A stretch of 64,000 nucleotides of DNA, taken from positions 13,324,459 to 13,388,458 of the forward strand of contig CM053261.1 of the NCBI GenBank assembly GCA_028583405.1, given 5' to 3'. Below the pieces are notes generated by a model. It searched no databases and was not told the origin of the DNA. It was given only the letters and a program-made list of their open reading frames with translations. Shown here in pieces: positions 1,133 through 64,000 of this stretch; within the stretch, counting starts at the first letter, position 1; each line of letters opens with the position of its first letter. The stretch is from Pogonophryne albipinna. Lineage: Eukaryota > Chordata > Actinopteri > Perciformes > Artedidraconidae. Position numbers and translations under genes: made by a program.

Positions 1133-6433
<5,301 letters not shown>

Positions 6434-57346: not shown

Positions 57347-58330
57347 AACACTTTATCCAGGATAAAAGCCACATAGCTGCACCTGCAAGGTGAATAGAGA
57401 ACCGCAGTGACGCGTCCTAAAACCCGGATGTAAACTCCTTCCGGTTCCTTCGTCAAAAACGCAATGCAATTTCTCCATAGGATTTTGGAAAATAGCTGGA
57501 AATAAGGTCTGTGGTTGACACACATTTAAGAGACGGATCACGTTTTGTTCAGCCGGATAATATCCACATGTCTATCCTACTTTTATAATTTTCGAAGCAT
57601 AAATCTAGTCGCAAGAAGCAAAATGATAACGTTATACTATAAAGGAACTACAGCAGGGTCGCTGCTTCAACGTCACGCCAACTTAAGATCCATATTCAAA
57701 CATACAGATTGTAAATGGTACAAGTTGAAGCGTTTGTTTGAACAGTTTGCAGGAGGCAGGTACTTGCTTTCAAGCAGAACAGGACAAACAAACTTAGCGG
57801 GAGTGTTTTACGCGTTGAAGCGTTTGTTTGAACAGTTTGCAGGAGGCAGGTACTTGCTTTCAAGCAGAACAGGGCAAACAAACTTAGCGGGAGTGTTTTA
57901 CGCGTTGAAGCGTTTGTTTGAACAGTTTGCAGGAGGCAGGTACTTGCTTTCAAGCAGAACAGGGCAAACAAACTTAGCGGGAGTGTTTTACGCGTTCGGT
58001 GTAATGACGTAAAACGGCCTGGACAACTTCTGTAGTCCTATTCAGCCACTTGTTAACAACCATCGTTTTTCAGACACGGAAACTCTTCAAAAATCACCAG
58101 CGGGGTCACTGCTGATGTATTTAATGTCGTAGAACAAAACGTGATCTGTCTCTTCAATTTGTGTCAAACACAGACCTTATTTGGAGCAATTTTCCAAAAT
58201 CCTATGGAGAAATTGCATTGCTTTTTGTGGAAGGAACCAGACGTGGTAAAAATGCTAACTTACTTCCGGGTTTTAGGACACTGCGGTTCTCTATACAGCT
58301 GGTAAAAGAAAAAGTGTTTGAATGCGTACA
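57347..58330. mobile_element. DNA element with ~200-bp imperfect inverted repeats, interrupted by the LTR element
   Basis: 57347-57550 and 58130-58330 are inverted copies (shared words AGAGAACCGCAGTG, GCAATTTCTCCATAGGATTT and ATCACGTTTTGTTC). The right copy is cut off exactly where the LTR at 58333 begins, so the LTR structure inserted into this repeat arm. The outer left part may start near 56904, where GGGGGGTA(T/A)ACTACGAA occurs twice. Confidence 0.65.
57725..57994. repeat. 90-bp tandem repeat, three units
   Basis: Units at 57725, 57815 and 57905 begin TTGAAGCGTTTGTTTGAACA. Units 2 and 3 are identical as far as I can see; unit 1 differs at one base (GGAC for GGGC). The unit is 30 codons, so an open frame (57545-58012) runs through, but it has no recognisable protein features and lies inside the inverted-repeat element. 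Confidence 0.92.
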
Positions 58331-58332
58331 TG

Positions 58333-58721
58333 TGATGCCCCTGTGGGTTCATCAGTAGAGAGGAGGTGGCTGTCCTGTCTGTGCTGTGGTGATTGGTGAT
58401 TGCAGTAACTCAGGGCACCTGGGTCTGGTGTCCTGCAGCTATTTAACGCCTCTCTGCTCCTCTCTCTGCTTCTCCCTGCAGGCACACCGGTTTTGTTGAG
58501 TATAATAGGAGTTTCTTCAGTTGCTTTACTTTGTGCACTTCAACACTCTCACACACATGTCCATACAATCCTCACCCTGCATTTACATTACTGATACCAC
58601 TGACTTCCACACCTCATACTTTACTGGTTTTGATTTGGTTTGTCCTAAATAAACACCTTTACCTACCCGTTGATATGTTGTGTCTCCTTTTTGTTGTGGC
58701 CTTTTGAGCCAGGTCGCAACA
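58333..58721 (+). repeat. LTR (plus orientation) at left edge of palindromic retroelement
   Basis: 389 bp, TGATGCCCCTGTGGGTTC … GTCGCAACA, with TATTTAA near 58440 and AATAAA near 58648. Differs from the minus-orientation LTR at 60996-61400 by several substitutions and indels (16 bp net length). Confidence 0.85.
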
Positions 58722-58723
58722 AA

Positions 58724-58736
58724 TGGGGGCTCGTCC
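58724..58736 (+). promoter_or_regulatory. tRNA-Pro-type primer-binding site
   Basis: TGGGGGCTCGTCC, two bases after the LTR, matches the start of the proline-tRNA primer site used by many retroviruses and some Ty3-like elements; the match then breaks (AGCG). Confidence 0.75.
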
Positions 58737-59289
58737 AGCGGGTTATTTGTTTAAAAAGTTTGTGTAGTGCTCAGAGCACATGGTGTCATTGAGCAGCTGA
58801 TTCATTGTTGTGGTCCAGCTGTGTGCTGGCTTGTCGCTGCTATTTGGGGGACACATCATGTCTTTTGGGTTTCAGGAAGCTGTAGTGTTTGACATGTCGT
58901 CAGGTTTTGTGTGCTAATCAGAGGGTAAGATGTTGCTGTTTGTTACGCTTTTGTAAAAGAGATTTTCCCCGCTAGGCTTAAGTGGCGTTTCCCCTTGGGT
59001 TGCGTCTGTTTTTTTTTGTTTTCATAGTGTTGTGGCGACGTGGTTAGTGTCAGCTGTTTTCGGACAGCTGTCTCGGGGGCACGTCCGCGTGAGTTCTTGG
59101 TGTTACCTGCGTGCAGGTTGCTCCATAACTCCGCCGGGTTCCAGTGCGTAATTACCCACCGCAAGCCACATGAAGACTAGGTGAGATTAGGAAGATTTTG
59201 TTTAGGCAGTTAGGGGGAAATTCTCTGTTGGGTTAATCTTATGCCCATGCGTGTTGGCAGTTTAATACTTTGCTTTCTGATTGGCTATT

Positions 59290-61095
59290 ATGACTTCTTT
59301 GTCAGCGTTTGTGGATGTGCCCTCAGTGTCTTTCTTAGATGATTGCCAGAAGGCGCAGTTGGTCGAAATAGCAGAGCACTATGACATTGCTGTTGTGGGG
59401 AGCAAGCGGAAACATGACATTAAAACTGTCATTGTGTCATCTTTGTTTGAACAGGGGGTGTTGCAGAAGAGTGAGTCTGGTGCAGCAGGGTTCGTGCCGG
59501 TAGTGGTTCAGACAGCTGGTTTGACGTTCGAGCAGCAAAAGGAGCTTTTGGCCATGCAGTTGGAGCAGGAGAGATTGCGGTTGGAGTTAAAGTTGGAGCA
59601 GGAGAAGTTGAGGTTGGAGCAGGAGAAGTTGCAGTTGGACATGAGGTTGGAACAGGAGAAGTTGAGGTTGGAGCAGGAGAAGTTGCAGTTGGAGTTGAGG
59701 TTGGAGCAGGAGAAGTTGCAGTTGGAGATGAGGGGTCAGCAGCAGGAGGTAGAGAAGCGTTTAGAGGTGGAGAAGGTGCTGGAGGTGGAAAAGATGAAAT
59801 GTGAGGTGGAACATGCTAGATTACGGCTGATGGGAGAGGGCAAGTTTTCTCCAGGGGAGGATGGTGGTGATAGGTCGGCATCAGGCAGTGGCGATATCAT
59901 TTCTTACTTGCGATTAGTGCCAAAGTTTAATGAGCGTGACCCGGACATTTTTTTCACTCTATTTGAACGCATAGCAGAGGCAAGAAACTGGTCAGATTCG
60001 GACAGAGTGCTGTTACTTCAGTGTGTACTCACTGGGCGAGCACAGGAAGCCTATTCAGCTGTTTGTGGCGAAAATGCTTTGGACTATGATAGAGTAAAAT
60101 CAGCGGTGTTGAAGTCTTACGAACTGGTTCCTGAAGCGTATCGTCAAAGGTTCAGAAGTTGGGTGAAGGGAGATAAACAGACACATGTGGAGTTTATCCG
60201 TGATTTAACTTCTCATTTTCAGCGGTGGTGCGCGGCAGCAAAGGTTGCAAGTTTTGACGGTCTTTGTGAGCTCATTGTCTTGGAACAATTTAAAGACATT
60301 CTCCCTCAGCGTGTGGCCACTTATGTGAATGAACAGAAGCCTTCCACCGCGTTTAGAGCTGCTGAATTAGCGGACGATTTTGTGTTGACACATAAGGGCA
60401 GTTTTACTGAGAAGTATTCTAGGGGTGATTGGAAACGTGGAGAAGACAATGGCTATGCCCGCGGTGGTGCAAAGTTTTCACCAGGCTCCTCCCGTAGATT
60501 TGTAGGTCCAGGGCGATCCGAGGGCGCCAGAGTGGGCCAATGTCATTATTGCCGAGAAGAGGGTCATTGGAAGGAGCGGTGTCCGTTGCTGGAACCTGAG
60601 GGGAAGCCTCGTTCTTCATCACATGCTCCAGCCATGTGTTGTTCTGCCGTTTTGGTTAAAAAGCCGCAGGGTGTAAGATCGGGCATGGTGCCTGTTAAGA
60701 AGCTGGTTTGTGCCGACTTGGAGGTGGGTTCTGTTTTTGAGCCGTTCATAACGGAAGCCGTTGTATCAATGGTCGGTAGTGACAAGTATGTTCCGATTAA
60801 GGTGTTGCGTGACACAGCAGCTAGATACTCATTTATTGTTGAGTCAGTGTTGCCTTTTTCGTCAGAGACAGAAACAGGGGATTTTGTGCTGATGAGGGGC
60901 ATGGAGATGGGCTTGATTCCTGTGCAACGTCATACAGTAGTGCTGGATTGTGAGCTGGTACGGGGAGTTGTGTCTATCGGCGTGCGTCCCCCATTTGTTG
61001 CGACCTGGCTCAAAAGGCCACAACAAAAAGGAGACACAACATGTCAACGGGTAGGTAAAGGTGTTTATTTAGGACAAACAAATCAAAACCAGTAA
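59290..61095 (+). pseudogene. gag-protease ORF, plus copy, truncated into antisense LTR
   Basis: First 567 residues equal the minus-strand ORF (see 61375-63666). The match ends at 60990, and the frame then runs through PBS-like and LTR sequence in reverse (VATWLKRPQQKG…) to a stop at 61095. The protease-like region is present, but everything after it, including the SSRP1-like part, is lost. The ATG used is the fourth codon of a longer frame opened by a TTG. Confidence 0.85.
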
Positions 61096-61400
61096 AGTAT
61101 GAGGTGTGGAAGTCAGTGGTATCAGTAATGTAAATGCAGGGTGAGGATTGTATGGACATGTATGTGTGTGAGAGTGTTGAAGTGCACAAAGTAAAGCAAC
61201 TGAAGAAACTACTATTATACTCACAAAACCGGTGTGCCTGCAGGGAGAAGCAGAGAGAGCACAGAGAGGAGCAGAGAGGCGTTAAATAGCTGGACACCAG
61301 GACACCAGACCCAGGTGCCCTGAGTTACTGCAATCACCAATCACCACAGCACAGCCAGGACAGCCACCTCCTCTCTACTGATGAACCCACAGGGGCATCA
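60996..61400 (-). repeat. LTR (minus orientation), 3' LTR of the minus-strand element
   Basis: 405 bp, reverse complement of the 58333-58721 LTR with small differences. Beyond its U5 end comes AAATGGGGG, the LTR-to-primer-site sequence of a 5' LTR, which then joins inverted gag sequence at a shared GGG. No strong polypurine tract abuts its U3 start; the nearest purine run is about 41 bp upstream (61442-61452). Confidence 0.85.
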
Positions 61401-63666
61401 CCTTAAGACGGGGCCCCAAAGGGATCCACGACAACCCAATATCCTCCTTCTTAACTCCAGCTTTTTTAATTTCCTTCTTAGGACTGGAGGACGCTCCTCC
61501 TCCGCCGCTGTCCCACTCCTCCTCGGGTTGGCTGGCGTTGATCCACAGCATGTAGGCGCTCATCGGCCTCTTGGGCGCGCCGACCTCGTTCGGCCTCCTC
61601 TTGTTCGGCCTCCTCTTGTTCGGCCTCCTCTTGTTCGGCCTCCTCTTGTTCGGCCTCCTCTTCTTCGCTTTGCAGGGTTTCCTCTCTTTCTTCTCCTTCT
61701 TCTTTGTCTCGATCTCAAAGTCAAAGGACCGTGCTGGACCACATTTTCCAGACTCCGAAACAGGTAGGTCAGTCGACATCCTACGGCTCTGCGCACGCGT
61801 AACAGTATAAACTGGAGACACACTTGGAAATTGCAAACCGCTCTCATCTGGCTCTACAGATGCCAACGGCCTGGAAATCACCACAGGCGGTGGCACACCC
61901 GCCCACACAGCACTACCAGCTAGATCGTTGCCCAAAATCATCTGTACCCCATCAAGTGGCAACGCGGGACGCACGCCGATAGACACAACTCCCCGTACCA
62001 GCTCACAATCCAGCACTACTGTATGACGTTGCACAGGAATCAAGCCCATCTCCATGCCCCTCATCAGCACAAAATCCCCTGTTTCTGTCTCTGACGAAAA
62101 AGGCAACACTGACTCAACAATAAATGAGTATCTAGCTGCTGTGTCACGCAACACCTTAATCGGAACATACTTGTCACTACCGACCATTGATACAACGGCT
62201 TCCGTTATGAACGGCTCAAAAACAGAACCCACCTCCAAGTCGGCACAAACCAGCTTCTTAACAGGCACCATGCCCGATCTTACACCCTGCGGCTTTTTAA
62301 CCAAAACGGCAGAACAACACATGGCTGGAGCATGTGATGAAGAACGAGGCTTCCCCTCAGGTTCCAGCAACGGACACCGCTCCTTCCAATGACCCTCTTC
62401 TCGGCAATAATGACATTGGCCCACTCTGGCGCCCTCGGATCGCCCTGGACCTACAAATCTACGGGAGGAGCCTGGTGAAAACTTTGCACCACCGCGGGCA
62501 TAGCCATTGTCTTCTCCACGTTTCCAATCACCCCTAGAATACTTCTCAGTAAAACTGCCCTTATGTGTCAACACAAAATCGTCCGCTAATTCAGCAGCTC
62601 TAAACGCGGTGGAAGGCTTCTGTTCATTCACATAAGTGGCCACACGCTGAGGGAGAATGTCTTTAAATTGTTCCAAGACAATGAGCTCACAAAGACCGTC
62701 AAAACTTGCAACCTTTGCTGCCGCGCACCACCGCTGAAAATGAGAAGTTAAATCACGGATAAACTCCACATGTGTCTGTTTATCTCCCTTCACCCAACTT
62801 CTGAACCTTTGACGATACGCTTCAGGAACCAGTTCGTAAGACTTCAACACCGCTGATTTTACTCTATCATAGTCCAAAGCATTTTCGCCACAAACAGCTG
62901 AATAGGCTTCCTGTGCTCGCCCAGTGAGTACACACTGAAGTAACAGCACTCTGTCCGAATCTGACCAGTTTCTTGCCTCTGCTATGCGTTCAAATAGAGT
63001 GAAAAAAATGTCCGGGTCACGCTCATTAAACTTTGGCACTAATCGCAAGTAAGAAATGATATCGCCACTGCCTGATGCCGACCTATCACCACCATCCTCC
63101 CCTGGAGAAAACTTGCCCTCTCCCATCAGCCGTAATCTAGCATGTTCCACCTCACATTTCATCTTTTCCACCTCCAGCACCTTCTCCACCTCTAAACGCT
63201 TCTCTACCTCCTGCTGCTGACCCCTCATCTCCAACTGCAACTTCTCCTGCTCCAACCTCAACTCCAACTGCAACTTCTCCTGCTCCAACCTCAACTTCTC
63301 CTGTTCCAACCTCATGTCCAACTGCAACTTCTCCTGCTCCAACCTCAACTTCTCCTGCTCCAACTTTAACTCCAACCGCAATCTCTCCTGCTCCAACTGC
63401 ATGGCCAAAAGCTCCTTTTGCTGCTCGAACGTCAAACCAGCTGTCTGAACCACTACCGGCACGAACCCTGCTGCACCAGACTCACTCTTCTGCAACACCC
63501 CCTGTTCAAACAAAGATGACACAATGACAGTTTTAATGTCATGTTTCCGCTTGCTCCCCACAACAGCAATGTCATAGTGCTCTGCTATTTCGACCAACTG
63601 CGCCTTCTGGCAATCATCTAAGAAAGACACTGAGGGCACATCCACAAACGCTGACAAAGAAGTCAT
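61375..63666 (-). CDS. gag-protease polyprotein with SSRP1-like tail, no pol
   Basis: 763 residues from the ATG at 63666 to a stop inside the LTR. Residues ~15-60: small helical SAP-like N-terminal domain. About 80-185: long Leu/Glu-rich coiled coil with LEQEKLRL repeats. About 200-370: capsid region like the SCAN/gag fold of Ty3-like elements (FFTLFERIAEARNW, FRSWVKGDKQ). 418-431: zinc knuckle CHYCREEGHWKERC. About 505-600: retropepsin-like domain with LRDTAAR in place of the usual DTG/DSG, and LGNDLAG. About 610-640: linker VTRAQSRR, which in relatives leads into reverse transcriptase. Here it instead runs into ~95 residues resembling SSRP1 (646-740), then LTR. Reverse transcriptase, RNase H and integrase are absent, so the element is non-autonomous. 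Family: Ty3-type retroelement; finer placement not possible here. Confidence 0.85.
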   Translation of the reverse strand: MTSLSAFVDVPSVSFLDDCQKAQLVEIAEHYDIAVVGSKRKHDIKTVIVSSLFEQGVLQKSESGAAGFVPVVVQTAGLTFEQQKELLAMQLEQERLRLELKLEQEKLRLEQEKLQLDMRLEQEKLRLEQEKLQLELRLEQEKLQLEMRGQQQEVEKRLEVEKVLEVEKMKCEVEHARLRLMGEGKFSPGEDGGDRSASGSGDIISYLRLVPKFNERDPDIFFTLFERIAEARNWSDSDRVLLLQCVLTGRAQEAYSAVCGENALDYDRVKSAVLKSYELVPEAYRQRFRSWVKGDKQTHVEFIRDLTSHFQRWCAAAKVASFDGLCELIVLEQFKDILPQRVATYVNEQKPSTAFRAAELADDFVLTHKGSFTEKYSRGDWKRGEDNGYARGGAKFSPGSSRRFVGPGRSEGARVGQCHYCREEGHWKERCPLLEPEGKPRSSSHAPAMCCSAVLVKKPQGVRSGMVPVKKLVCADLEVGSVFEPFITEAVVSMVGSDKYVPIKVLRDTAARYSFIVESVLPFSSETETGDFVLMRGMEMGLIPVQRHTVVLDCELVRGVVSIGVRPALPLDGVQMILGNDLAGSAVWAGVPPPVVISRPLASVEPDESGLQFPSVSPVYTVTRAQSRRMSTDLPVSESGKCGPARSFDFEIETKKKEKKERKPCKAKKRRPNKRRPNKRRPNKRRPNKRRPNEVGAPKRPMSAYMLWINASQPEEEWDSGGGGASSSPKKEIKKAGVKKEDIGLSWIPLGPRLKVMPLWVHQ
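61456..61731 (-). other. host-derived segment resembling SSRP1 (FACT subunit)
   Basis: In-frame part of the gag ORF whose blocks match the chromatin factor SSRP1 in SSRP1 order: RSFDFEIETK (middle domain), KKEKKERKP (basic linker), GAPKRPMSAYMLWINAS (61581-61531, first helix of the HMG box), EEWD (later in the HMG box), then SGGG…SSSPKKE of the basic tail. Sequence between blocks is missing, so no complete HMG box remains. Five 15-bp units encoding KRRPN (about 61588-61665) sit between the blocks. Recognition is from memory of vertebrate SSRP1 and should be confirmed by search. Confidence 0.75.
61588..61665. repeat. 15-bp tandem repeat, five units
   Basis: TTCGGCCTCCTCTTG repeated five times on the plus strand; encodes KRRPN on the minus strand within the SSRP1-like segment. 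Confidence 0.95.
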
Positions 63667-64000
63667 AATAGCCAATCAGAAAGCAAAGTATTAAACTGCC
63701 AACACGCATGGGCATAAGATTAACCCAACAGAGAATTTCCCCCTAACTGCCTAAACAAAATCTTCCTAATCTCACCTAGTCTTCATGTGGCTTGCGGTGG
63801 GTAATTACGCACTGGAACCCGGCGGAGTTATGGAGCAACCTGCACGCAGGTAACACCAAGAACTCACGCGGACGTGCCCCCGAGACAGCTGTCCGAAAAC
63901 AGCTGACACTAACCACGTCGCCACAACACTATGAAAACAAAAAAAAACAGACGCAACCCAAGGGGAAACGCCACTTAAGCCTAGCGGGGAAAATCTCTTT

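Follow-up and report, generated by a model that had tools for sequence, protein, structure and literature searches.

Acute transforming retroviruses carry host mRNA sequence in place of viral genes, often fused to Gag, and are moved by helper viruses. Among elements with long terminal repeats (LTRs), host gene pieces have been described in maize Bs1 (PMC13317346), and the capture of KIT-ligand or nectin3 has been reported for crocodilian endogenous retroviruses (ERVs) (PMC4299795). We analysed a stretch of 64,000 nucleotides (the window) from the genome of the Antarctic notothenioid fish Pogonophryne albipinna (contig CM053261.1, positions 13,324,459 to 13,388,458), which contains an LTR element whose Gag and protease-like parts are continued in frame by sequence from the host gene SSRP1. 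It is very probable that a Gmr-type element captured spliced ssrp1a mRNA in place of its integrase (IN), reverse transcriptase (RT) and RNase H (RH) regions, and that the resulting chimera was then mobilised in trans.

The fusion is encoded on the minus strand by an open reading frame (ORF) of 766 amino acids (61375-63675, with a TTG start and an ATG at 63666), which we delimited from the reading frame, Pfam matches and genome-wide copies. Within the interval that the initial annotation had given to the element (61375..64000), only 61375-63675 belongs to the ORF, and 63676-64000 is leader. The leader (63667..64000, minus strand) extends outside the window as far as a primer binding site at about 64232, where a 5′ LTR is absent. 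The ORF contains a SCAN (retroelement capsid-type) domain (residues 284-372, 62560..62826; PF02023, E 8.1e-19), a CCHC zinc knuckle (residues 420-435, 62371..62418) that at 16 bits stays under the Pfam cut-off of 20.8, and a protease-like part with LRDTAARYSFI and ILGNDLAG that ends at VTRAQ (61801..62250, limits approximate). The latter has no Pfam match of its own, and we take it to be a protease, partly from motifs that it has in common with the fish gag-IN protein P0015. VTRAQSRR stands at residue 625 and the SSRP1 sequence starts at about residue 649, the SSRP1a-derived segment covering 61443..61733 by sequence comparison, with ends approximate to a few bases. As first described, RSFDFEIETK, KKEKKERKP, GAPKRPMSAYMLWINAS, EEWD and a Ser/Gly-Lys tail follow VTRAQSRR in SSRP1 order and in one frame; the blocks are, in full, RSFDFEIETK, KEKKERKP, KRRPN repeats, GAPKRPMSAYMLWINAS, EEWD and GGGGASSSPKKEIKKAGVKKE, and the last one in SSRP1 order, after EEWD, is SGGGG..SSSPKK. 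The tail was also said to run directly into the LTR, an order that holds, but the final residues of the ORF (DIGLSWIPLGPRLK, then VMPLWVHQ) come from the element's own 3′ end (GGATCCCTTTGGGG..CTTAAG, 61403..61442, assigned by sequence comparison) and from the start of the 3′ LTR (60998..61401, about 404 bp, with the stop codon inside it), and not from SSRP1. When the tail alone was compared with solved structures, SSRP1 chains ranked first (best E 1.6e-4), and the eight sequences at E up to 1 were four SSRP1 chains, the rest being HMG-D or NHP6A. A protein search returned 13 proteins at E <= 1e-3, namely ten fish SSRP1 proteins and three notothenioid gag fusions, two from Gymnodraco and one (P0001) from Pogonophryne, the window's own species, which is therefore not independent evidence. 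In summary, it is confirmed that a SCAN-type gag, a CCHC knuckle and a protease-like part are joined in frame to SSRP1-derived sequence.

The sole multi-exon SSRP1a match in the P. albipinna genome, among the best 62 of 2932 candidates, lies at C3:26388890-26399294. Its eight exons were joined by script as an mRNA, with which six tails were compared. Pieces of at least 38 bp were identical at 77.7-100%, those of lower identity holding repeat gaps or adjoining a deletion, and the tail of copy L008 matched the ssrp1a mRNA of its own genome at 77 of 77 bases; this identity at the DNA level rules out a chance basic sequence. The tails cross the exon junctions at 608, 782 and 925 of the mRNA, the left side of junction 782 being matched over 6-7 bases only, and all three of the spanned introns are absent; therefore, it was spliced ssrp1a mRNA that was captured, in agreement with the earlier proposal that SSRP1 was acquired as reverse-transcribed mRNA. 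The donor motif RRPKEVGAPKRP was found in one of the 248 proteins compared (gag proteins counted), the SSRP1a of Pseudochaenichthys, and is carried by P. albipinna's own ssrp1a. It is absent from the SSRP1 of Eleginops and Cottoperca, which have other residues there. Eleginops is described as the sister lineage nearest to the Antarctic fishes (PMC10298351), so that the donor sequence is cryonotothenioid and the capture followed the Eleginops split.

Evidence for what the SSRP1 sequence replaced came from related loci. Three loci whose Gag is 94-95% identical have open frames of 1615, 1622 and 1615 amino acids, and a fourth long gag locus has one of 1182 amino acids, with a stop. In the 3.6 kb read downstream of the gag of L081, VTRAQSRK.. 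is followed by H2C2 (positions 127-180), rve (201-296), p58_C, RVT_1 (628-781) and RNase H (847-977). Its purine tract is identical to that of the fusion element, and from the tract into the LTR the two are 85.5% alike over 242 columns, with a later LTR piece at 98.7% over 75. Since the IN-RT-RH series follows VTRAQSRK in L081 and the 3′ ends are similar, SSRP1 occupies the place of IN-RT-RH, which bears out the idea that it stands in place of pol and rules out that the tail is the normal pol or env end of the element. Consistently, IN, RT and RNase H have no Pfam match in the window ORF, and neither the window nor the loci checked contained an IN-like match. In the relative IN precedes RT, an order that we take to be a mark of Gmr elements (Gmr1). 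A single gag-pol frame of 1506-1634 amino acids is described for the Gmr family of tetraodontiform fish (PMC11117352), a size that the 1615-amino acid frame fits. This open gag-pro-IN-RT-RH relative is the likely helper. By frame size and the domain order assumed for the family, the fusion element itself would fit a non-autonomous derivative of a Gmr-type Ty3/gypsy element.

A genome search with the whole ORF found the fusion at no fewer than 59 loci, the window copy included (the best 59 of 4426 candidates), all of which match through the tail to at least residue 741, with main pieces 94-100% identical; 55 of them are free of internal stops and four have one. Searches with gag only and with tail DNA were run to reduce the ranking bias of the whole-ORF search. 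Among 82 loci scored with gag only, 66 had frames of 686-816 amino acids (four with a stop inside gag), four had frames of at least 1000 and 12 were shorter; all 66 would carry the tail, as judged from their length where it was not read. With tail DNA, 39 of the best 40 of 325 candidates matched the full query and one matched 387/391 of it. In all seven copies with two LTRs (L002-L008, 3571-3635 bp) the LTRs are in direct orientation and have TG..CA ends, one LTR of L005 departing in its first 10 bases. The two LTRs of a copy show 0-3 mismatches over some 400 positions (0-0.75%). Target duplications of 5 bp, read by eye, flank six of the seven, that of L006 lying within a GT repeat. All seven also have the purine tract CTTAAGGGGGGGGC before the LTR and the primer binding site TGGGGGCTCGTCC after it, the latter presumably of the tRNA-Pro type. 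The LTR pairs of 18 further loci differ by 0-2.6% (maximum in L037). LTR pieces of at least 150 bp in L023, L032-L035 and L037-L039 are 76.5-90.3% like a young LTR, and L036 has no such piece. Thus, with 59 scored loci in P. albipinna and fusion proteins in Gymnodraco acuticeps, the fusion has multiplied as a mobile family. Gypsy copies of recent origin are reported to be numerous in the P. albipinna genome (PMC10716251), so this process may be recent or ongoing. Separately, the gene model of Pseudochaenichthys cep104 isoform X1 (P0077) contains a SCAN gag domain like that of the fusion element, which is either a prediction artefact or a real fusion.

The initial annotation had described pieces lost in frame between the SSRP1 blocks, and the comparison with the mRNA gave their sizes. 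A stretch of 354 nt of the mRNA, with ACAAAG at both edges, has been lost between blocks one and two, and 5 nt stand in place of 92 from the HMG start to KEEWD; both losses are common to all P. albipinna copies in which both flanks are readable. Later losses of 57 nt and 24 nt separate some of the five classes of tail. Class I tails (L023, L032, L039) keep KTVKVVKE and IKAVEAKK.., and class II tails (L033, L035, L036, L038) are without the basic stretch. The IKAV part (57 nt) is missing from class III (L024-L027, L031, L040), the IKAV part and a further 24 nt from class IV (the window copy, L002-L008, L041-L080), and the 24 nt only from class V (L037, with the Gymnodraco proteins placed there by likeness), while L028-L030 have a class IV tail on a class III-like gag. 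The KRRPN/K basic unit, single in host ssrp1a, is repeated in class IV. Compared with L004, five of the six class III copies (L024-L027, L040) are 96-100% identical in most bins and 90-94% in gag bins 1500-2250, the bins in which L004 is 96-98% like the class I copies L032 and L039 and not like L023; the class III copy L031 is also lower at bins 2500-3000. Judged from these identity patterns, class III and IV elements are mosaics, that is, recombinants. A younger age of the tail than of gag, which its low silent divergence had suggested, was dropped, as the difference comes largely from the swapped gag segment. Two further observations concern other tails. P0014 (675 amino acids, ENA source) is a gag fusion that keeps RSLDFEIETVKVVKEKK.., joins the blocks otherwise and lacks an HMG block ahead of the 3′ end of the element. 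In G000, clusters of IKAVEAKK tails with short frames of 90-147 amino acids lie at C14:6815834-7076864 and C2:129808-493483, and may have arisen from an old copy by segmental duplication.

As to what the tail does, as distinct from where it came from, one account, with a probability slightly short of even, is that SSRP1 was captured by accident and only the Gag-protease matters, the frame having stayed open since the copies are young and a basic tail is harmless. The ratio of nonsynonymous to synonymous differences (pN/pS) relative to L004 was 0.42 in the Gag-protease of six young copies, 0.26 in that of six class III copies and 0.41 in that of eight class I/II/V copies, versus 1.06, 1.25 and 1.30 in their tails with repeats removed, comparisons that are not independent and in which the tail sites are few (L028, L029, L030 and L034 are in no pooled class). 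Hence, Gag is constrained, and constraint at the level of residues was not seen in the tail. The low LTR divergence of all seven two-LTR copies also agrees with such a passenger role, as does the disruption of both the HMG box and the middle domain. Among 16 readable older tails (L028 and L034, without an anchor, were dropped), six have gone out of frame by the time the HMG block ends and three more do so beyond it, again as expected of a passenger; against this, every one of the eight indel classes common to at least three of 61 tails has a length divisible by three, and each frameshift was counted in one or two copies. This count leaves out L023, L036 and L041, in which the 3′ end was not found or the piece was short, and a 13-nt event at column 540 in three copies, an artefact of piece cutting. 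Similarly, 36 of the 40 tails found by DNA alone (query included) are net in frame, and the KRRPN/K unit is repeated in the copies, observations that likewise count against a passenger. However, the argument from frame keeping is weak, because rankings that include the tail favour open ones and because slippage at the 15-bp and AAG repeats changes length by multiples of three.

The tail had initially been viewed as a DNA- or nucleosome-binding fragment of FACT, a view that has less support, as the part kept is not an intact domain of this kind: no Pfam family is found in it, the HMG_box of SSRP1a spans residues 548-616, of which the tail keeps approximately 546-566 and 595-598, and the predicted structure of one tail sequence is of low confidence (mean predicted local distance difference test score, pLDDT, 58.9). 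The tail is basic, with 23-40 K+R versus 11-20 D+E in the seven copies computed. If it has any role, this would most likely be that of a basic, unstructured extension of Gag for nucleic acid binding or nuclear entry, tethering included, to which we give about one chance in three. The narrower idea that the tail steers Gag or the integration complex to chromatin, by analogy with foamy-virus Gag and p12 of murine leukaemia virus (MLV), is unlikely. FACT reportedly binds chromatin as well as the integrase of avian retroviruses, and assists the integration of these viruses and of human immunodeficiency virus type 1 (HIV-1) (PMC9861059, PMC5534098), and the basic composition of the tail is in its favour, but the folded HMG box is not kept and constraint on residues was not seen. 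Equally doubtful is the broader proposal that the element made a chromatin-directed Gag from part of a FACT subunit already used in retroviral integration, in which a tail reshaped in frame over successive waves would aid chromatin access or entry while relatives gave the enzymes.

Whatever the role of the tail, the origin that we favour is the capture of spliced ssrp1a mRNA, a reading built on what was observed: the fusion and its donor gene, the spliced origin, the many loci with their LTRs and target duplications, and an open relative with pol. Replacement of pol by template switching had been put forward at the outset, and here the replacement and the spliced origin hold, whereas the switching itself, like trans mobilisation and successive waves, is what the sequences suggest. 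In a cryonotothenioid ancestor, a particle would have held both element RNA and ssrp1a mRNA, and the reverse transcriptase would have jumped from the element RNA, just past the protease, to the spliced ssrp1a mRNA, passed over some stretches of this template, once at a short repeat, and returned to the element RNA just before the 3′ purine tract. The result would be a chimera that keeps the LTRs, leader, Gag and protease-like part, and in which IN-RT-RH is swapped for SSRP1 sequence in frame with Gag. Full-length relatives could then supply the copying and insertion enzymes in trans, and later tail slips and recombination between lineages would give successive waves; the recombination seen in classes III and IV is the same kind of switching as that proposed for the capture. 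Several points weigh against this reading. The left switch point is not sharp, because the relative differs there, and mobilisation in trans is suggested by shared ends and Gag, no event having been observed. No target duplication was seen at L005, and the copy numbers are lower bounds, as only the best candidates were scored and some of the loci read. With pN/pS of 1.06-1.30 at few sites, the tail may be unimportant, and the frame of L037 is shifted after SSSPKK, as is the end of Gymnodraco P0002, so that this far-end frameshift is either shared or arose twice. Finally, the case is known here from sequence alone. The absence of introns would also be explained if a processed ssrp1a pseudogene, made by a long interspersed nuclear element (LINE), had landed in the element and pol had been lost later. 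This route is very improbable, since no poly(A) was seen, the mRNA is represented by an internal mosaic only, and the junctions lie just after the protease, where the fusion is in frame, and just before the purine tract; nor was an IN-like match, as a pol remnant would give, found in the loci checked.

The window copy differs from the copies elsewhere in its arrangement. Its description as an LTR element holds for the family, which has two-LTR copies elsewhere in the genome, but the copy in the window is more than a simple provirus. It faces a second, partial copy, with inverted arms at 58724-60990 and 61966-64232 that differ by one mismatch, and the composite inverted insertion spans 58331-64000 of the window and 4124-4355 of L001. 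The second copy, on the plus strand, consists of a 5′ LTR (58331..58721, by sequence comparison), a primer binding site TGGGGGCTCGTCC (58724..58736, which we take to be of the tRNA-Pro type) and a partial gag-protease that ends before SSRP1 (59290..60990, from the reading frame and the inverted-arm match). On the minus strand, a stub of the primer binding site (AAATGGGGG, 60988..60997) follows the LTR of the fusion copy and directly adjoins the inverted gag copy. The fusion copy has no 5′ LTR, its far side beginning at the primer binding site, and the purine tract of the other copies is absent from it. With its start at the primer binding site and an LTR plus a stub at its end, it resembles minus-strand cDNA before the second jump, and the pair may have arisen by the end-joining of incomplete cDNAs. 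An assembly error may affect this inverted pair alone; as the source of the fusion itself, an assembly chimera, which the odd inverted pair might suggest, or a chance similarity is practically ruled out by the 59 scored loci and the Gymnodraco acuticeps protein records. Nearby, a 90-bp unit is repeated three times in tandem (97% alike) at 57719-57996 within an open frame of 155 amino acids, and just beyond the window (L001 4691-5250) lies a foldback with two 150-bp arms, 94% alike.

In searches of an open-access library, the titles and abstracts listed showed no SSRP1-capturing LTR element. Host-gene transduction by LTR elements is already known from published descriptions (PMC4299795, PMC13317346), and the SSRP1-Gag fusion is a fresh variant of it. 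It provides a clear and datable vertebrate case in which spliced host mRNA has entered the Gag frame of an LTR retrotransposon that went on to spread, with the donor gene, an open relative, intermediate forms and recombinants all within one genome. This natural series of forms lets one ask whether the captured tail alters where, or how well, the element moves. Like acute transforming retroviruses, as generally understood, the element has host mRNA sequence in place of its own genes and in fusion with Gag; unlike them, it is a germline retrotransposon with a chromatin gene, involving no infectious agent or tumour gene. Compared with Gmr fish elements, described with gag-pol frames of 1506-1634 amino acids (PMC11117352), the relative with 1615 is similar, whereas the chimera is without IN, RT and RNase H. 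The likeness to foamy-virus Gag and MLV p12, reported to tether to chromatin (PMC9861059), concerns possible function only, the origin being unrelated. Like Bs1, it is an LTR element with host gene sequence, but Bs1 belongs to a plant and is described as holding segments from three host genes, whereas here one host gene is found in a vertebrate Gmr-type element with 59 scored loci and an open pol relative (PMC13317346). It shares with the crocodilian ERVs a captured host mRNA in a vertebrate LTR element; however, those ERVs have long intact host ORFs, reportedly under purifying selection (PMC4299795), and the present element has a mosaic fragment fused to Gag-protease, in which constraint at the level of residues was not seen.

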